Assembly: GCA_004764695.1 (NCBI GenBank)
Contig: SMSO01000035.1
Span: 2,956,040-2,978,539 of the forward strand
Direction: 5' to 3'
Length of the DNA: 22,500 nt
Source of the DNA: Schizochytrium sp. TIO01
Lineage: Eukaryota; Sar; Bigyra; Thraustochytrida; Thraustochytriidae
Below are positions 5,107 through 21,946 of this stretch, piece after piece. The notes under the pieces were generated by a model that worked only from the letters and a program-made list of their open reading frames with translations, was not told where the DNA came from and searched no databases. A program made the position numbers and the translations under genes. Every line of letters begins with the position of its first letter. Position 1 is the stretch's first letter.

Positions 5107-5224
5107 ACATTCGATCATACCACGCGGGTAACACCTCATCTCATTCGCACTGAGAAGTAAAGTCGCGTAGGGCCGGGTCAGTAGTATGATAGGGGACTGC
5201 ATGCGAAGCCCCGGTGTTGAATGT
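5107..5224 (+). rRNA. 5S ribosomal RNA, copy 1
   Basis: 118 bases matching the layout of eukaryotic 5S rRNA. The ends ACATTCGA and TTGAATGT pair as helix I. Inside are the CATACCAC segment of loop A, an A-box-like GAAGTAAAGTCG, and a C-box-like segment around GTATGATAGGGGACTG. A run of seven T begins at the 3' end (5224-5230), giving a Pol III terminator. It is identical over all 118 bases to the copy at 18172-18289. It sits alone between two divergent protein genes, not in a tandem array. The type of RNA is clear; the exact ends are from pairing. Confidence 0.9.
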
Positions 5225-5230
5225 TTTTTT
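5224..5230 (+). terminator. Pol III T-run terminator of 5S copy 1
   Basis: Seven consecutive T directly at the 3' end of the 5S gene, sufficient for Pol III termination. Confidence 0.7.

Positions 5231-6339: not shown

Positions 6340-6381
<42 letters not shown>
6340..6381 (+). repeat. (CT)21 microsatellite
   Basis: About 21 perfect CT dinucleotides, about 100 bases before the start codon at 6480, so in the probable 5' leader or core promoter. CT/GA tracts can act as promoter elements and are length-unstable. Confidence 0.9.
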
Positions 6382-6479: not shown

Positions 6480-9400
6480 ATGACTGTGGCAAAAAGCATT
6501 AAGGGCATCACAGAAGATACGACAGAGATAGAGTAAGTTCACGATGGAAAGAGGAGATGACAGAAGAAGGAGGCATCGCGTCGTCGATGTGTTGTAGTAG
6601 TCAGCTTTAGTTTTATACTAGTAGTGGTACTCATGAAGAAGTTGGAAATGGCATATACTTACTCTCACTTGTTCACTAACAAATAAACAAACACAGTCTT
6701 GGTTGGAAACAGATTGGTCGTAAGGGCGCAAAGGCCGTCGCAAAGGCACTCGAGGGATGCAAGAACCTTCAAGAATTGTGGTACGTTTGTGGAATCATCA
6801 ACGAGGGAAAGCTATCGTAATAGTCAGGACCAAGCTTTTTCTTTCTTTCTTCTTAGTGCTTGGTGTTTGTAGTACTGCTGGTACACTACCTACGTAGTTC
6901 ACGTAGTTGGGTACTTTAGAAAGGCAAAGAAGTCTTTTCTTTTTTACAAAGACAAGAAGGAAATCTATATAATTTGATACGCAGCAGCAGCAGAAGAAGA
7001 AGAGCTGATTGCTTTTTATTGTGAGGAAAAAAAAAAAAAAAAAAAAAAACAGGATCAACTGACTGGAGCTGTCTTTCCTGACAACAACGAATGAACAAAA
7101 CAAACTTATTCATTTATACTCACAGTCTTTCTGGCAACAACATTGGCGATGAGGGCGCAAAGGCCGTCGCAAAGGCACTCGAGGGATGCAAGAACCTTCA
7201 AACTGTAAAGTACGTTTGTGGAGTCATCAACGAGGGAAAGCTATCGTAATAGGCAGGACCAAGCTTTTTCTTTCTTTCTTTTTAGTGCTTGGTGTTTGTA
7301 GTACTGCTGGTACACTACCTAAGTAGTTTACATAGTTGGGTACGCAAAGAAAGGCAAAGAAAGGCAAAGAAGTTTTTTCTTTTTTACAAAGAGAAGAAAG
7401 AAATCTATATAATTTGATAGGCAGCAGCAACAGCAGAAGAAGAAGTGATTGCTTTTTAATGTGAAGAAAAACAAAACAAAACAAAACAGGATCAACTGAC
7501 TGGACCTGTCTTTCCTGACAACGAATGAACAAAACAAACTTATTTATTTATACTCACAGTCTTAACAACAACAAGATTGGCTATGAGGGCGCAAAGGCCG
7601 TCGCAAAGGCACTCGAGGGATGCAAGAACCTTCAAACTGTAAAGTACGTTTGTGGAATCATCCGCGAGGGAAAGCTATCGTAATAGGCAGGACCAAGCTT
7701 TTTCTTTCTTTCTTTTTAGTGCTTGGTGTTTGTAGTAATGCTGGTACACTACCTACGTAGTTTACGTAGTTGGGTACGCAAAGAAAGGCAAAGAAGTCTT
7801 TTTTTTTTTACAAAGAGAAGAAGGAAATTTATATAATTTGATAGGCAGCAGCAGCAGAAGAAGAAGAGCTGATTGCGTTTTATTGTGAGGAAAAACAAAA
7901 CAAAACAGGATCAACTGACTGGACCTGGCTTTCCTGACAACGAATGAACAAAACAAACTTATTCATTTATACTCGCAGTCTTGGTTGGAACAACATTGGC
8001 GATGAGGGCGCAAAGGCCGTCGCAAAGGCACTCGAGGGATGCAAGAACCTTCAAACTGTAAAGTACGTTTGTGGAATCATCCGCGAGGGAAAGCTATCGT
8101 AATAGGCAGGACCAAGCTTTTTCTTTCTTTCTTTTTAGTGCTTGGTGTTTGTAGTAATGCTGGTACACTACCTACGTAGTTTACGTAGTTGGGTACGCAA
8201 AGAAAGGCAAAGAAGTCTTTTCTTTTGTACAAAGAGAAGAAGGAAACCTATATAATTTGATAGGCGGCAGCAGCAGAAGAAGAAGAGCTGATTGCTTTTT
8301 ATTGTGAGGAAAAACAAAACAAAACAGGATCAACTGACTGGACCTGTCTTTCCTGACAACGAATGAACAAAACAAACTTATTCATTTATACTCACAGTCT
8401 TCATGGGAACAACATTGACGATGAGGGCGCAAAGGTCGTCGCAAAGGCACTCGAGGGATGCAAGAACCTGACTTATCTGAAGTACGTTTGTGGAATCATC
8501 CACGAGGAAAAGCTATCGTAATAGGCAGGACCAAGCTTTTTCTTTCTTTCTTTTTAATGCTTGGTGTTTGTAGTACTGCTGGTACACTACCTAAGTAGTT
8601 TACGTAGTTGGGTACGCAAAGAAAGGCAAAGAAGTCTTTTCTTTTTTACAAAGAGAAGAAGGAAATCTATATAATTTGATAGGCAGCAGCAACAGCAGCA
8701 AAAGAAGAAGAAGAGCTGATTGCTTTTTATTGTGAGGAAAAACAAAACAAAACAGGATCAACTGACTAGACCTGTCTTTCCTGACAACGAATGAACAAAA
8801 CAAACTTATTCATTCATACTCACAGTCTTTGCAACAACAACATTGGCTCGGAGGGCGCAAAGGCCGTCGCAAAGGCACTCGAGGGATGCAAGAACCTTCA
8901 AACTTTACAGTACGTTTGTGGAATCATCCACGAGGGAAAGCGATCGTAATAGGCAGGACCAAGCTTTTTCTTTCTTTCTTTTTAGTGCTTGGTGTTTGTA
9001 GTACTGCTGGTACACTACCTAAGTAGTTTACGTAGTTGGGTACGCAAAGAAAGGCAAAGAAGTCCTTTCTTTTTTACAAAGAGAAGAAGGAAGTCTATAT
9101 AATTTGATAGGCAGCAGAAGCAGCAGAAGAAGAGGTGATTGCTTTTTATTGTGAGGAAAAACAAAACAAAACAGGATCAACTGACTGGACCTGTCTTTCC
9201 TGACAACGAATGAACAAAACAAACTTATTCATTTATACTCACAGTCTTTCTGGGAACAAGATTGGCTCGGATGGCGCAAAGGCCGTTGCAAAGGCACTCG
9301 AGGGATGCAAGAACCTTCAAACTTTAGAGTACGTTTGTGGAATCATCCACGAGGGAAAGCTATCGTAATAGGCAGGACCAAGCTTTTTCTTTCTTTCTTT

Positions 9401-12400
9401 TTAGTGCTTGGTGTTTGTAGTACTGCTGGTACACTACCTAAGTAGTGTACGTAGTTGGGTACGCAAAGAAAGGCAAAGAAGTCTTTTCTTTTGTACAAAG
9501 AGAAGAAGGAAATCTATATAATTTGATAGGCGGCAGCAGCAGAAGAAGAAGAGCTGATTGCTTTTTATTGTGAGGAAAAACAAAACAAAACAGGATCAAC
9601 TGACTGGACCTGTCTTTCCTGACAACGAATGAACAAAACAAACTTATTCATTTATACTCACAGTCTTCATGGGAACAACATTGACGATGAGGGCGCAAAG
9701 GTCGTCGCAAAGGCACTCGAGGGATGCAAGAACCTGACTTATCTGAAGTACGTTTGTGGAATCATCCACGAGGGAAAGCTATCGTAATAGTCAGGACCAA
9801 GCTTTTTCTTTCTTTCTTTTGAGTGCTTGGTGTTTGTAGTACTGCTGGTACACTACCTAAGTAGTTTACGTAGTTGGGTACGCAAAGAGAGGCAAAGGAG
9901 TCTTTTCTTTTTTACAAAGAGAAGAAGGAAATCTTTATAATTTGATAGGCAGCAGCAGCAGCAGCAGAAGAAGAAGAGCTGATTGCTTTTTATTGTGAGG
10001 AAAAACAAAACAAAACAGGATCAACTGACTGGACCTGTCTTTCCTGACAACGAATGAACAAAACAAACTTATTCATTTATACTCACAGTCTTTTTAGCAA
10101 TAACATTGGCTCGGAGGGCGCAAAGGCCGTCGCAAAGGCACTCGAGCGATGCAAGAACCTTCAACAATTGCAGTACGTTTGTGGAATCATCCACGAGGGA
10201 AAGCTATCGTAATAGTCAGGACCAAGCTTTTTCTTTCTTTCTTTTTAGTGCTTGGTGTTTATAGTACTGCTGGTACACTACCTACGTAGTTTACGTAGTT
10301 GAGTACTTTAGAAAGGCAAAGAACTATTTTCTTTTTTAGAAAGAGAAGAAGGAAGGGCAAAAAAGGGAATCTGTATAATTTGATAGGCTGCAGCAGCAGA
10401 AGAAACCGTGATTGCTTTTTACTGTGAAGAAAAAGAAAACAAAACAGGATCAACTGACTGGACCTGTCTTTCCTGACAACGAATGAACAAAACAAACTTA
10501 TTCATTTATACTCACAGTCTTCATGGGAACAACATTGGCGATGAGGGCGCAAAGGCCGTCGCAAAGGCACTCGAGGGATGCAAGAACCTGACTTATCTAA
10601 GGTACGTTTGTGGAATCATCCACGAGGGAAAGCTATCGTAACAGGCAGGACCAAGCTTTTTCTTTCTTTCTTTTTAGTGCTTGGTGTTTGTAGTACTGCT
10701 GGTACACTACTTAAGTAGTTTACGTAGTTGGGTACGCAAAGAAAGGCAAAGAAGTCTTTTCTTTTTTACAAAGAGAAGATGGAAATCTATATAATTTGAT
10801 AGGCAGCAGCAGCAGAAGAAGAAGAGGTGATTGCTTTTTATTGTGAGGAAAAACAAAACAAAACAGGATCAACTGACTGGACCTGTCTTTCCTGACAACA
10901 ACGAATGAACAAAACAAACTTATTCATTTATACTCACAGTCTTTCTAGCAACAAGATTGGCTCGGATGGCGCAAAGGCCGTTGCAAAGGCACTCGAGGGA
11001 TGCAAGAACCTTCAAACTTTAGAGTACGTTTGTGGAATCATCCACGAGGGAAAGCTATCGTAATAGGCAGGACCAAGCTTTTTCTTTCTTTCTTTTTAGT
11101 GCTTGGTGTTTGTAGTACTGCTGGTACACTACCTAAGTAGTTTACATAGTTGGGTACGCAAAGAAAGGCAAAGAAAGGCAAAGAAGTTTTTTCTTTTTTA
11201 CAAAGAGAAGAAAGAAATCTATATAATTTGATACGCAGCAGCAGCAGAAGAAGAAGAGCTGATTGCTTTTTATTGTGAGGAAATATGAAACAAAACAAGA
11301 TCAACTGACTGGACCTGTCTTTCCTGACAACCAATGAAAAACAAACTTATTCATTTATACTCACAGTCTTGAGAGCAACAACATTGGCTCAGAGGGCGCA
11401 AAGGCCGTCGCGAAGTCTCTGCACAAAGCATGTCCTTCTGTTCGAGTCCAGTAAGTTCCGTTCCCTCTGCTTCTGGTCCTAGCTTTCGCAGAGCCTTGTC
11501 ATCTATGGTTCTCTCCAAGTCTCCATGGACTTGCGAAGCGGTCTTTAGATGCGTTAATCGTGCTTCTAACAAACGCTCTTATTCTCTTTCATTCGTGTAT
11601 TCACATGCGTTACAAAACGCAGCTATGACAGCTTTCGTGGAACCCCTAAAGAATTGCTCGAAAGGGTGTGTTCTCCTGGAGAGGATATTTACTCCTCATC
11701 AGAGACCGATTTCTGTGCCTCGAAGAGCAAGCAAGATGGCATATATGGGTAAGTTCATGCGTTTTTTTTTTGTTTGGGATCGTGTGATCATTCATTCCAC
11801 AAATTGTGTTGTTGAGGTATTTTGAAGATCCTAACTTTTGCTTTTGCCTCTGCTGGTTCTCTCTGTGTCTCCATAGACTTGCGAAGCTATCTTTAGATAC
11901 GGTCATCGTTATTCTATCAATTACTGTTATTCTCTTTCGTTCGTTTTTTTATTCGTTTACAAGACGCATTCTCTATGATGCATATTTGTCTTTTAAAGAA
12001 TTGTTCGAAAGGGTGCGTTCTCCTGGAGAGAACATATCTGGGTAAGTTCATGCGTTTTTTGTTAGGGATAGTGTGATCATTCATTCCACAAATTGTGTTG
12101 TTGAGATATTTTGGAGATCCTAACTTTTGCTTCTGCCTCTGTTGCTGCTTCAAATGTCTTCACTTTGCTCGTTTGTTTACGTCTTCTTGTTCACCTCAGA
12201 GAACGGCCGGATGGAGCGAGCGTGAGTTTCGCTGATGTGGTGCAGCTTGCCAAAAAAGTCTCGGACTTGCGCGCGGACCCAGACGGGGTCAGAGAAAACT
12301 CCCTGCAGACTGGGATTGCCTTGCTTGAGGAATTCGTAGGACCGGCGATCCAGGGCTACTTTGGCCAAGTGAAGTTGCGACAGCTTTCCGCTGACATCAA

Positions 12401-14888
12401 GAACTCCAAAGAGGGTCTTGACGCACTACAAGGCCAGATTCGTGCAAGCTCTGGTGATGGCTTGCCCAGCCTCATCGAAAAGCGGAACGCCGAACGAAGT
12501 CGCCTGCATTCGCTTTTGCAGGTTGTGTACCCATGGGTTCGCGCAAAACTTTGCGAAAGTGATGAAGATATAGGGCGAGAATTCAAAGTGAGAGTCGAAA
12601 GTTTGGTAGATCATCTAAATATCAAACCTGCGCCAGTCACGGAAGAGACCAGCACAGATGACTTTAAACACTGCCAAGAACTCGTTGTTCAGGCTGTCAA
12701 ATGCGTCGAAGAGTATAAGAGGAGTGGAGAAGGACAATCCAACAACATTGGTGAACGAAGCCAACAAGCTGTAAAGCGCGTTATCTCTCGATTGTCTGAG
12801 CTGAAGCTTGGTGATGGATTATTGGTTGCCCTGAGGACACCGGAGCAGGCCATGGAGCTAAAACCGGAGTTGTCTGAACTTGAGCGTGCTCTTCAAGAAG
12901 AAATCGAAGCTCTACAAGGAGATATACTTCGTGCCCAATTGTCCGAAATACTTTGCGCAATAAGTGTAACATTTGCTCGATTTGAAGGATATTCTAAAAG
13001 TGCTGCGTTAAATGAAGCGAGCAAGTGCGCACCAGAAGAGCTCTCTGGACTGTATGACTATTTAGGACTGGGTTTGAAAGAACCTTCTGTCTCAGATGTT
13101 GAAGAATTATACCAGAAACTTGACAAGTCGAGGATAGCCACAGAAATTTTGAAGAGAGCCAAAGAAGAACTCGAAATAGAGGACATGAATGAGGAAGATC
13201 AAGCATATTTTAGAAATAGAATGAAAAACCAAGAGCTCATTCTCTCTCAAGACAACCCTATCGACCTTAGCAAAGCTTTTCGTCATAAGCTTGCTGAGAC
13301 TCTGCAACACGCGCAGGAACATTATCCAGAGTTGCTGCAAGATAGAGCCTGGCTGGAAAGGCTTCACGTAAGTGCAGAGGGTGTTTTTGAAGTAGCATGT
13401 TCTGACCTTTGGTTGACGAATGTCACAGTCGCGGACTTCAAGCCTGTTGGCGAACCCCTTGCTTCCAGAGGTGGCAAGAGAGTACAAAAGGTTCTTGACA
13501 ACGTTGGTAAAACTATTGTTTTGAAACAATTTCAACTCGGCCATTCGAGCCAACACAAAATATTTTACAGGCAAGCTGCAAATATGGGAAACGTGGTGTC
13601 TCAGCACGTGATACGTATCACTGGCGCTTTTGTGGATACTTCTAATGGAGAACCGCGTGGCTGTATCCTCATGCCTTTCTACGAGCAAGGTGACCTTGCC
13701 AAGTGGATTGAGCGTCATCCTAACGAAGGCAAAGCAGTGCGCGACCGACTTGCTATGGGCCTGCTTATCGGTGTGGCGGATTTGCATACCCATGGCATTG
13801 TGCATTGTGATATCAAACCAGAAAACATTTTTCTCACAAGCAACGGGACACCATTGATCGGCGACTTTGACGGCATCAAGGTTGCAGACTACACTGCAAC
13901 TTACACATCACTCCAGGCAACGCCACGGTACGTTGCCCCCGAGTTGCAGAATGGGCCTGTAGATAGGTTTGAAACAGCGATGGACATGTACTCTGTGGGC
14001 ATAAGCTTAAAGGAGCTGTATCCTACTGAGCGAACCGCTGCAATGCAGGCACTTATCGATGCTCTTACAGCAACAGACCCTGGCCAGCGTCCAACTGCTC
14101 ACCAAGCACTCCAACATGAAGCTTTTGGAGCTCCTAAGATCCCTGTCAAGATATGTCTAGTATGCATGGAGGAGCATCTGCTTTCCGAGGGCACAAGCTG
14201 CGAGGAGGGAGACTTCCTTTGCAGAGACTGTATCAAATCTGCAGTAGAAGCGGCGTCACAGCCACTTGCTAACGTAAGAGTGGATGCTGATGGAACGATG
14301 GCATGCATGAAACCCGAATGTGGGGGAAGAATATCAGGTCAAGAAATCACTCGTCTTGCACCAACAGCTTTGAATCATCTTTTGTTGATTGCGAAGATGA
14401 AGGCAGAAAATGAAGCAGCAGTTTGGGCGGAGAAGGAGATCCAAAGGCGCATAGCAGAAGTTTTGCGTGCAGATGAACAGAATCGCGACGCACAACGGCA
14501 TTTACTTCATATTCAAGAGAAGATCTTGAGCACGAGTTGTCCGAACTGTAAGGCATATGTACACGATTTTGCCGGTTGCTGCGCTGTAAAGTGTGGTAAT
14601 GATACTTGTGGTCATCACTTCTGCGCTTGGTGTCTTGAGTTTAGTTCTCAGAATTCACGAGCTTGTCATGCTCATGTGAGAACCTGCTTGAAAAAGCTTG
14701 GGCAAGATCCATTTTTTCCTGATTCATTTGAGCAGGTTCGTGAGGCGTGGCAGTTGCTCCGCGCAGAACGTCTGCGTGAGTACTGGAATGCACAAATTCA
14801 GGATAGAAATCTTCGACTCGTTCTGAGAGAGTTTTTGTCACCTTTGCTAACACCAGATATCGTTGGCGCAAACTTTAGATTGGAATAA
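6480..14888 (+). CDS. LRR - protein kinase - RING1/RING2 (RBR-like) fusion protein
   Basis: Predicted 16-exon gene, 1,317 residues, all introns phase 2. Exons: 6480-6532, 6697-6780, 7126-7209, 7560-7643, 7979-8062, 8398-8481, 8826-8909, 9245-9328, 9664-9747, 10089-10172, 10518-10601, 10940-11023, 11367-11450, 11623-11748, 11964-12041, 12200-14888. Residues 1-18 are a short leader; 18-354 are twelve 28-residue LRRs of the ribonuclease-inhibitor type; 354-422 a linker from two related exons; 422-830 helical sequence of unknown fold; about 832-1064 a protein kinase; 1074-1129 RING1; 1202-1251 RING2 with catalytic-type Cys1215. No signal peptide or membrane segment is seen, so a cytoplasmic sensor is inferred: LRRs bind, kinase and ubiquitin ligase signal. 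The frame stays open across every junction, which is strong support for one gene. The start ATG is followed by 17 codons and a GTAAGT donor, like exon 1 of the divergent neighbour. Function is not proven. Confidence 0.85.
7027..7049 (+). repeat. A23 homopolymer in the first repeated intron
   Basis: A 23-base A run replaces the AAAACAAAACAAAACA tract found at the same place in the other introns of the array. Other units keep the interrupted form, so this is a local expansion. Confidence 0.85.
8063..8481 (+). repeat. LRR unit duplicated at 9329-9747
   Basis: Exon 8398-8481 and exon 9664-9747 are identical, including changes found in no other unit (GAC and GTC giving IDD and KVV). The 3' halves of the introns before them share private variants (TTTTGTACAAAG and GGCGGCAGCAG). 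The 5' halves differ, so the copied tract appears to begin inside the intron. Confidence 0.75.
11623..12041 (+). repeat. Duplicated linker exons 14 and 15
   Basis: The exons at 11623-11748 and 11964-12041 share a segment read as KELLERVCSPGEDI and KELFERVRSPGENI, and their flanking introns also match in part (for example a shared GACTTGCGAAG segment). The second exon is shorter, lacks the serine-rich 3' half, and uses an AAG acceptor shifted upstream. Both keep phase 2 at both ends, so either can be included or skipped without changing frame. The first has two in-frame acceptors nine bases apart (exon start 11623 or 11632). Confidence 0.7.
12200..13427 (+). other. Helical middle region of the fusion protein
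   Basis: Part of the last exon, residues about 422-830. It is rich in Leu, Glu, Lys, Ala and Gln with heptad-like stretches, and no known domain motif is visible. It joins the LRR array to the kinase and may be an oligomerisation or autoinhibitory region; that role is inference. Confidence 0.5.
13428..14126 (+). other. Protein kinase domain with DFD motif
   Basis: Residues about 832-1064. Visible landmarks: VLK with the likely beta-3 lysine Lys864; HCDIKPEN catalytic loop with Asp959 and Asn964; GDFDG with metal-binding Asp977, where the usual DFG glycine is Asp; VAPE at 1000-1003; the alpha-F Asp1017 in DMYSVG; and DPGQRPTA with Arg1052. No clear glycine-rich loop is seen, and the alpha-C glutamate position seems to be Gln880. 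The lysine and the catalytic and metal-binding aspartates are present, so activity is plausible but not certain. The HCD form resembles tyrosine-kinase-like and receptor-interacting kinases in general; finer classification needs a search. Confidence 0.85.
14154..14321 (+). other. RING1-like zinc domain
   Basis: Residues 1074-1129. Cysteines occur as C-x2-C-x11-C-x3-D-x2-C-x2-C-x24-C-x4-C, closely matching RING1 of RBR ubiquitin ligases, where the fourth ligand is normally His. Here that position is Asp1093. In the family RING1 recruits the ubiquitin-charged E2 enzyme. Confidence 0.75.
14538..14687 (+). other. RING2 (Rcat)-like domain with candidate catalytic cysteine
   Basis: Residues 1202-1251. 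The spacing C-x2-C-x9-C-x4-C-x4-C-x4-C-x2-C, followed by HAH and a last Cys, is the same as that of human parkin RING2 as I recall it. The third cysteine, Cys1215, falls on the ubiquitin-accepting catalytic cysteine. No cysteine occurs in the 72 residues between RING1 and RING2, so a normal IBR domain is absent. Confidence 0.75.
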
Positions 14889-18171: not shown

Positions 18172-18289
18172 ACATTCGATCATACCACGCGGGTAACACC
18201 TCATCTCATTCGCACTGAGAAGTAAAGTCGCGTAGGGCCGGGTCAGTAGTATGATAGGGGACTGCATGCGAAGCCCCGGTGTTGAATGT
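18172..18289 (+). rRNA. 5S ribosomal RNA, copy 2
   Basis: 118 bases, identical to the copy at 5107-5224 and in the same orientation, 13 kb away. The similarity stops at the helix I ends on both sides, so the gene itself, not a larger segment, is shared. T5 (18292-18296) and T6 (18301-18306) runs follow as Pol III terminators. Confidence 0.9.
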
Positions 18290-18291
18290 TC

Positions 18292-21023: not shown

Positions 21024-21097
21024 GTCTCCGTGGCCAAGTTGGATAAGGTGCCTGACTACGAATCAGGAGATCGTGGGTTCAAGTCCCGCCGGAGATT
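21024..21097 (+). tRNA. tRNA-Arg (anticodon ACG)
   Basis: Complete cloverleaf: acceptor stem GTCTCCG with CGGAGAT (one G-T pair), D arm with GTTGGATAA, anticodon stem CCTGA/TCAGG with loop CTACGAA, and T arm GTGGG-TTCAAGT-CCCGC. No intron. The internal A and B boxes are intact, and a T6 run at 21115-21120 serves as terminator. ACG is read as ICG after A34 editing and decodes CGN arginine codons. Confidence 0.95.
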
Positions 21098-21114
21098 CTG
21101 GAACTTAAAGTGTG

Positions 21115-21848: not shown

Positions 21849-21875
21849 TATTCACTTCCCTAGTCTTGAAGTGAG

Positions 21876-21946
21876 TGCCTTCGCGCGGAATCGAACCACG
21901 GTCGTCACGGCCACAACGTGACGTTCTACCATTGAACTACGAAAGC
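21876..21946 (-). tRNA. tRNA-His (anticodon GTG)
   Basis: Cloverleaf on the minus strand: acceptor GCTTTCG with CGAAGGC (one T-G pair), D arm GTTCAATGGTAGAAC, anticodon stem GTCACG/CGTGAC with loop TTGTGGC, T arm CGTGG-TTCGATT-CCGCG, and discriminator A. No intron. As in other eukaryotes, the G at position -1 would be added after transcription. Confidence 0.95.

Follow-up and report, generated by a model that had tools for sequence, protein, structure and literature searches.

In the HNWD/NWD family of Podospora anserina (het-d, het-e), repeats are homogenised and evolve in concert, repeat number varies and a few surface codons diversify (PMC1805685; PMC12222747), an evolutionary pattern that is an established mechanism of allorecognition (PMC1805685). 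The LRR-ROCO genes of brown algae, proposed as immune receptors, carry one phase-2 exon of 72 bp per leucine-rich repeat (LRR) and evolve by exon shuffling under diversifying selection, according to PMC11378527 and to Zambounis et al. (2012) cited there. As described in PMC6564038, Tetrahymena LRR genes consist of tandem symmetrical 90-bp phase-2 exons and undergo ectopic recombination, the youngest genes being subtelomeric or pericentromeric and some being fused to a kinase. In this work, we focused on a gene of the thraustochytrid Schizochytrium sp. TIO01 located at positions 6,480 to 14,888 of a stretch of 22,500 nucleotides of contig SMSO01000035.1 (assembly GCA_004764695.1), hereafter the window. 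We assessed its structure and that of its paralogs; the family, about 60 copies strong, combines variable LRR arrays with a nearly constant kinase and RING1/RING2-like effector.

The mode of evolution of this family is already known in other systems, and its members are best read as products of shuffled exons, concerted evolution and selection for diversity, as in the three groups above. With the brown-algal genes the family shares a stramenopile lineage, one phase-2 exon per LRR, shuffling and diversifying selection, whereas its exons measure 84 nt and a kinase with RING1/RING2 stands in place of the ROC-COR GTPase. The likeness to Tetrahymena lies in the tandem symmetrical phase-2 exons and in the fusion of some genes to a protein kinase; there, purifying selection is emphasised and the available text of PMC6564038 reports no RING1/RING2 part. 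Podospora HNWD genes have in common with the window family the homogenised repeats, the variable repeat number, the diversified codons of the interaction face and the constant effector half, but they number about 10 and encode fungal NLRs in which WD40 repeats accompany NACHT and HET domains, against about 60 genes with LRR exons, one intron per repeat and a kinase plus RING1/RING2 here. Finally, lamprey variable lymphocyte receptors (VLRs), which arise by somatic assembly and are either secreted or anchored, display a hypervariable LRR concave face on a constant framework and remainder. The window family resembles them in its hypervariable concave residues on a constant framework, and differs in that its diversity is observed in the assembled genome instead of arising by somatic assembly. 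The chain LRR-kinase-RING1/RING2 itself appears to be undescribed: as a first reading of the window from its sequence only had supposed, no protein with this full domain order was found in the literature searched, whose coverage was partial, so that an earlier mention elsewhere is possible.

Gene structure and linkage of the two halves

The sequence-only reading had spliced sixteen exons into one chain. Rebuilt base by base, these 16 exons, with AG/GT borders, do join in a single open frame encoding 1,317 residues, in the order 12 LRRs, linker, helical region, kinase, RING1 and RING2-like zinc domain. Pfam recovered both the LRRs (LRR_6, E-value 6.7e-74) and the kinase (Pkinase, 1.3e-28) that had been proposed. 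The exons, all on the + strand, are as follows.

6480..6532 (+): exon 1, the start exon MTVAKSIKGITEDTTEI, with a homologous start exon in 14 other paralogs
6697..6780 (+): LRR exon 1, 84 nt, phase 2 (exon model, Pfam)
7126..7209 (+): LRR exon 2
7560..7643 (+): LRR exon 3
7979..8062 (+): LRR exon 4
8398..8481 (+): LRR exon 5
8826..8909 (+): LRR exon 6
9245..9328 (+): LRR exon 7
9664..9747 (+): LRR exon 8, with the same sequence as LRR exon 5
10089..10172 (+): LRR exon 9
10518..10601 (+): LRR exon 10
10940..11023 (+): LRR exon 11
11367..11450 (+): LRR exon 12, the cap repeat with an AKSLHKACPSV-type end, recognisable in 19 of 19 genes
6723..11415 (+): tandem array of the 419-bp exon-plus-intron unit (Tandem Repeats Finder, 11.1 copies, 90 % match)
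11623..11748 (+): linker exon 14 (KELLERVCSPGEDI), with a homologue in 19 of 19 genes
11964..12041 (+): linker exon 15, a tandem duplicate of exon 14 with a mutated acceptor, possibly skipped in frame
12200..14888 (+): large terminal exon (helical region, kinase, RING part), with 51 matches in the genome

The start exon has the form MTxAxxIxDIxxDTTEI in the 14 further paralogs as well. A (CT)21 run at 6340-6381 lies just 5' of it. Each of the 12 LRR exons measures exactly 84 nt, starts with T/CTT, ends before GT and is in phase 2 at both ends, so that any number of them can be added, lost or skipped without loss of frame. Exon 15 is confined to the window clade (the window gene and L002-L006); the sister copies have a CAG acceptor and the window CAT, and its coordinate in the window is uncertain, since either the AG 6 nt upstream is used or the exon is skipped, both of which keep the frame. 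In L006 the linker exon occurs in three tandem copies, i.e. linker exons duplicate too. Hydropathy of the whole chain revealed neither a membrane segment nor a signal-like start, and the protein is therefore probably intracellular and cytosolic.

In order to compare gene organisation, the upstream DNA was read at 19 gene loci, i.e. the window gene and 18 others whose large exons are 60-97 % identical to the window copy. All of the 18 carry an array of 84-nt phase-2 LRR exons of their own, and neither the order nor the phase of LRR exons, cap repeat, linker exon and large exon changes among the 19 genes. This comparative evidence argues strongly for a single chain, and sensor, kinase and ubiquitin-transfer modules would thus be united as first proposed, judging from the sequence and from their recurrence in every paralog read upstream. 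A division into two neighbouring genes, one with the LRR exons and the other with the large exon, would be compatible with a junction known from genomic sequence; retention of order, phase and linker exon in all 19 genes makes it barely tenable. A start proper to the large exon, which would have spoken for separate genes, received no support either: in the window no in-frame ATG lies between the upstream stop and residue 218, and yet this ATG-less part is conserved at the protein level and under purifying selection.

Variation and distribution across the family

Searches of the genome (64 Mb, 37 contigs) located the large exon at 51 places and the RING part, aligned over almost its full length with no less than 54 % identity, at 60; older relatives (about 26-46 %) and fragments come in addition. 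Most copies retain an intact frame of 900 amino acids, and some are fragments with stops. Purifying selection acts on the exon that encodes the kinase and the RINGs: the ratio of nonsynonymous to synonymous substitution rates (dN/dS) amounts to 0.19 in the kinase, 0.27 in the RING part and 0.39 in the helical part (residues 1-400), and dN exceeds dS in none of 595 pairs.

The LRR half behaves otherwise. Concave-face codons, for solvent-facing residues (2, 3, 25, 26 and 28 of the exon), were set from the LxxLxLxxN strand consensus before any counting. Over 87 internal repeats, 82 of which are distinct, these five codons show 13, 16, 7, 10 and 9 residue types, the next-highest codon showing 5. 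Within an array, positions 1-2 of the concave codons differ in 54 % of comparisons, against 3 % in introns and, in framework codons, 4 % at positions 1-2 and 8 % at position 3. Where two repeats have the same residue at a concave site, their codons mismatch in 4.4 % of cases versus 6.0 % in the framework, and residues use position-specific codons (Ser is TCT at codon 2 and AGC at codon 3); both observations point to the shuffling of old variants under selection and not to a mutational hotspot. Targeted hypermutation of the concave codons, of the kind produced by diversity-generating retroelements, was also considered, and the same codon evidence points away from it. The 5' and 3' variable blocks of the LRR exon associate almost freely, with 78 combinations versus 82.8 expected under full shuffling (range 77-87).

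Variation in the number of LRR exons is equally wide, from 5 to at least 18 per copy. The large exons of L004 and L005 are 99.4 % identical at the nucleotide level, and the two genes have 0 LRR peptides in common; those of L002 and L003 are 99.9 % identical, with at least 16 versus 6 LRRs, three of them in common. A pattern of variable sensor and constant effector is shown for this family. L032 and L033 (contigs C32 and C35) were examined as possible alleles and rejected, their flanks not being collinear at high identity.

Contigs of known length carry 50 of the large-exon copies, 41 of which are found no further than 100 kb from a 5.8S ribosomal DNA (rDNA) unit or a contig end; random placement (2,000 trials) put on average 4.9 copies that close, and 13 at most. 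Copies of greater divergence (61-68 %) are mostly interior. At least 40 5.8S units of identical score are scattered singly over many contigs, often no more than tens of kb away from family copies; several of them stand inside long contigs, where they are either real or assembly joins. In Aurantiochytrium, subtelomeric rDNA is universal (Collier et al. 2023, cited in PMC12221091). The telomere repeat TTAGGG occurs nowhere in the present assembly, so that a subtelomeric location of the family is here a presumed one. Outside this genome, no relative turned up among viral contigs searched with the RING alignment, and in prokaryote genomes the sole matches were two stretches of Acinetobacter, which align with a portion of the kinase at 27 % identity.

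Kinase and RING1/RING2-like part

The large exon encodes the following regions, numbered below from its first residue.

12201..13436 (+): helical region, about residues 1-412, without family match, modelled mostly as helix at low confidence
13440..14129 (+): protein kinase domain with VLK, HCD, DFD and APE motifs (Pfam Pkinase 1.3e-28; motif columns)
14154..14321 (+): RING1, C652-C707 (profile match to RNF216 RING1, E-value 2.2e-5)
14538..14687 (+): RING2-like zinc domain, C780-C829 (profile match to ARIH1 RING2, E-value 6e-4)
14577..14579 (+): candidate catalytic Cys, C793, chain residue 1215, aligned with ARIH1 C357

In the kinase, K442 (the VAIK Lys), D537 (the HRD Asp, in an HCD-K-N motif), N542 (the Asn of the catalytic loop), D555 (the DFG Asp) and the PE of APE are invariant in 41 of 41 close copies. 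Departures from the usual motifs are nearly as constant, with DFD for DFG in all 41, Gln458 for the alpha-C Glu in 40, and no GxGxxG. The kinase may be active but unusual. An older relative, L060 (G000:C31:6278200-6281250), reads HCN instead of HCD and is probably a pseudokinase. The Pfam scan of the window protein revealed no NB-ARC or NACHT ATPase and no ROC/COR domain.

The RING part was less readily recognised than the kinase. Profile searches bore out the sequence-only reading for the kinase at once and for the RINGs with a family profile: the single-sequence Pfam scan of the window protein returned no RING and no IBR (IBR_2 only at E 0.69), and a profile of the RING part built with relatives down to 26 % identity matched RNF216 RING1 (2.2e-5), ARIH1 RING2 (1wd2, 6e-4; 2m9y, 0.01) and parkin (0.065), as well as the RING of RNF4 (7e-4). 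RING1 has C3HC4 ligands in divergent members, and Asp replaces His in the main clade, the window protein included. The RING2-like domain has the spacing C-x2-C-x9-C-x4-C-x4-C-x2-C, which is that of RING2, and its third Cys is C793. Forty of 41 close copies retain this residue, and so do 17 of 17 members of a diverse set, in which it is more strictly conserved than two presumed zinc ligands. L052 is the only close copy lacking it (Trp instead).

Ring-between-ring (RBR) ligases such as ARIH1, parkin and RNF216 thus have in common with the family the C3HC4 ligands of RING1, the Cys spacing of RING2 and the position of the catalytic Cys; they possess an IBR and a catalytic His, whereas the window family has no IBR, has Ala for His and is fused to a kinase and LRRs. 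The RING part is accordingly RBR-derived rather than canonical. Of the catalytic-cysteine ubiquitin ligase first proposed, the Cys at the position of ARIH1 C357 stands, and the IBR and the catalytic His are missing. In L066 (G000:C33:2558450-2559350) both the helical region and the kinase are missing, so that the linker is followed at once by the RING part, and the gene is probably an LRR-RING variant of this family.

Predicted function and alternative explanations

We lean towards the view that these roughly 60 intracellular proteins, with their variable sensors and constant effectors, serve in non-self (or self/non-self) recognition. Such a putative immune or self-recognition role is strongly, if indirectly, favoured by the hypervariable concave face, the size of the family and the split into a variable and a constant half; ligand binding, the kinase and ligase activities, the order of events and the biological role are all predicted. 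The concave face of the variable LRR array would bind a target or ligand, and binding would relieve the helical and kinase part, the kinase then phosphorylating itself or the bound protein. RING1 would engage a ubiquitin-charged E2 (conjugating enzyme), and ubiquitin would pass via the RING2-like C793 to the LRR-bound target or to the protein itself, marking non-self (a virus, a parasite or a foreign strain) or triggering a defence or death response. Diversity would arise as the 84-nt phase-2 exons are duplicated, lost, swapped and possibly skipped with the frame intact, exchange homogenising the framework while selection keeps the contact residues different.

Several points weigh against this interpretation. 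Its support is the genomic sequence of one assembly. The kinase is unconventional (DFD, alpha-C Gln, weak Gly loop) and could be weak or a scaffold. No IBR lies between RING1 and RING2, the window protein having no Cys and only a conserved His between C707 and C780, and the site two residues beyond the Cys, where RBR ligases have their catalytic His, is occupied by Ala in each of the 41 close copies, so that thioester transfer is a candidate mechanism only. Single-sequence AlphaFold runs on the RING part and on the large exon gave meaningless models, with a confidence score (pLDDT) of about 39.

A bolder form, which we put forward tentatively and hold to be less probable than its negation, is that of a large VLR-like repertoire, subject to shuffling, in which each immune sensor is a single chain that would recognise, phosphorylate and ubiquitinate its target through an IBR-less RING1/RING2 ligase, the diversity being renewed by recombination of arrays near chromosome ends and perhaps by somatic rearrangement or exon skipping. 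If true, a unicellular protist would possess, independently of NLRs, a recognition repertoire that is anticipatory and has its complete output built in, and diversification of intracellular receptors within single cells would become testable; an RBR-derived ligase would work without an IBR while physically coupled to a kinase.

The LRRs might instead be variable substrate receptors of regulatory ubiquitin ligases acting on endogenous proteins, for housekeeping or for the switch from zoospore to settled cell. An LRR and a ubiquitin ligase in one chain or complex do choose substrates in several known ligases (LRSAM1, F-box-LRR). Moreover, signal-transduction proteins change during the zoospore transition of Aurantiochytrium (PMC12221091). 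Endogenous substrates would however favour conserved surfaces, and the concave residues differ strongly even between near-identical effector halves; with a large family near rDNA and its rapid turnover added, we rate this alternative as unlikely.

Self/non-self recognition, i.e. of allo- or mating type, in place of antimicrobial defence is suggested by the closest evolutionary analogue, the het-d/het-e family of Podospora, which acts in allorecognition. The sequence data fit allorecognition and pathogen sensing alike, and no record of cell fusion in this organism was found in the literature examined; we give it a small share of the probability.

A selfish or neutral family near chromosome ends, its arrays growing by unequal crossing over to no adaptive end, would account for the many copies near rDNA and contig ends and for the fragments with stops, but is largely refuted, and in our view very improbable, given that most copies keep the 900-amino-acid frame intact, that the kinase and RING parts evolve under strong purifying selection (effector dN/dS well below 1) and that an excess of variation is mainly confined to five contact codons set a priori, where neutral arrays would vary equally in their introns.

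As for the surroundings of the gene, 5S rRNA genes flank it on both sides (5107-5225 and 18172-18290, both +, 96.5 bits each), and two tRNA genes lie downstream in the window, for Arg at 21024-21098 (+) and for His at 21875-21946 (-).
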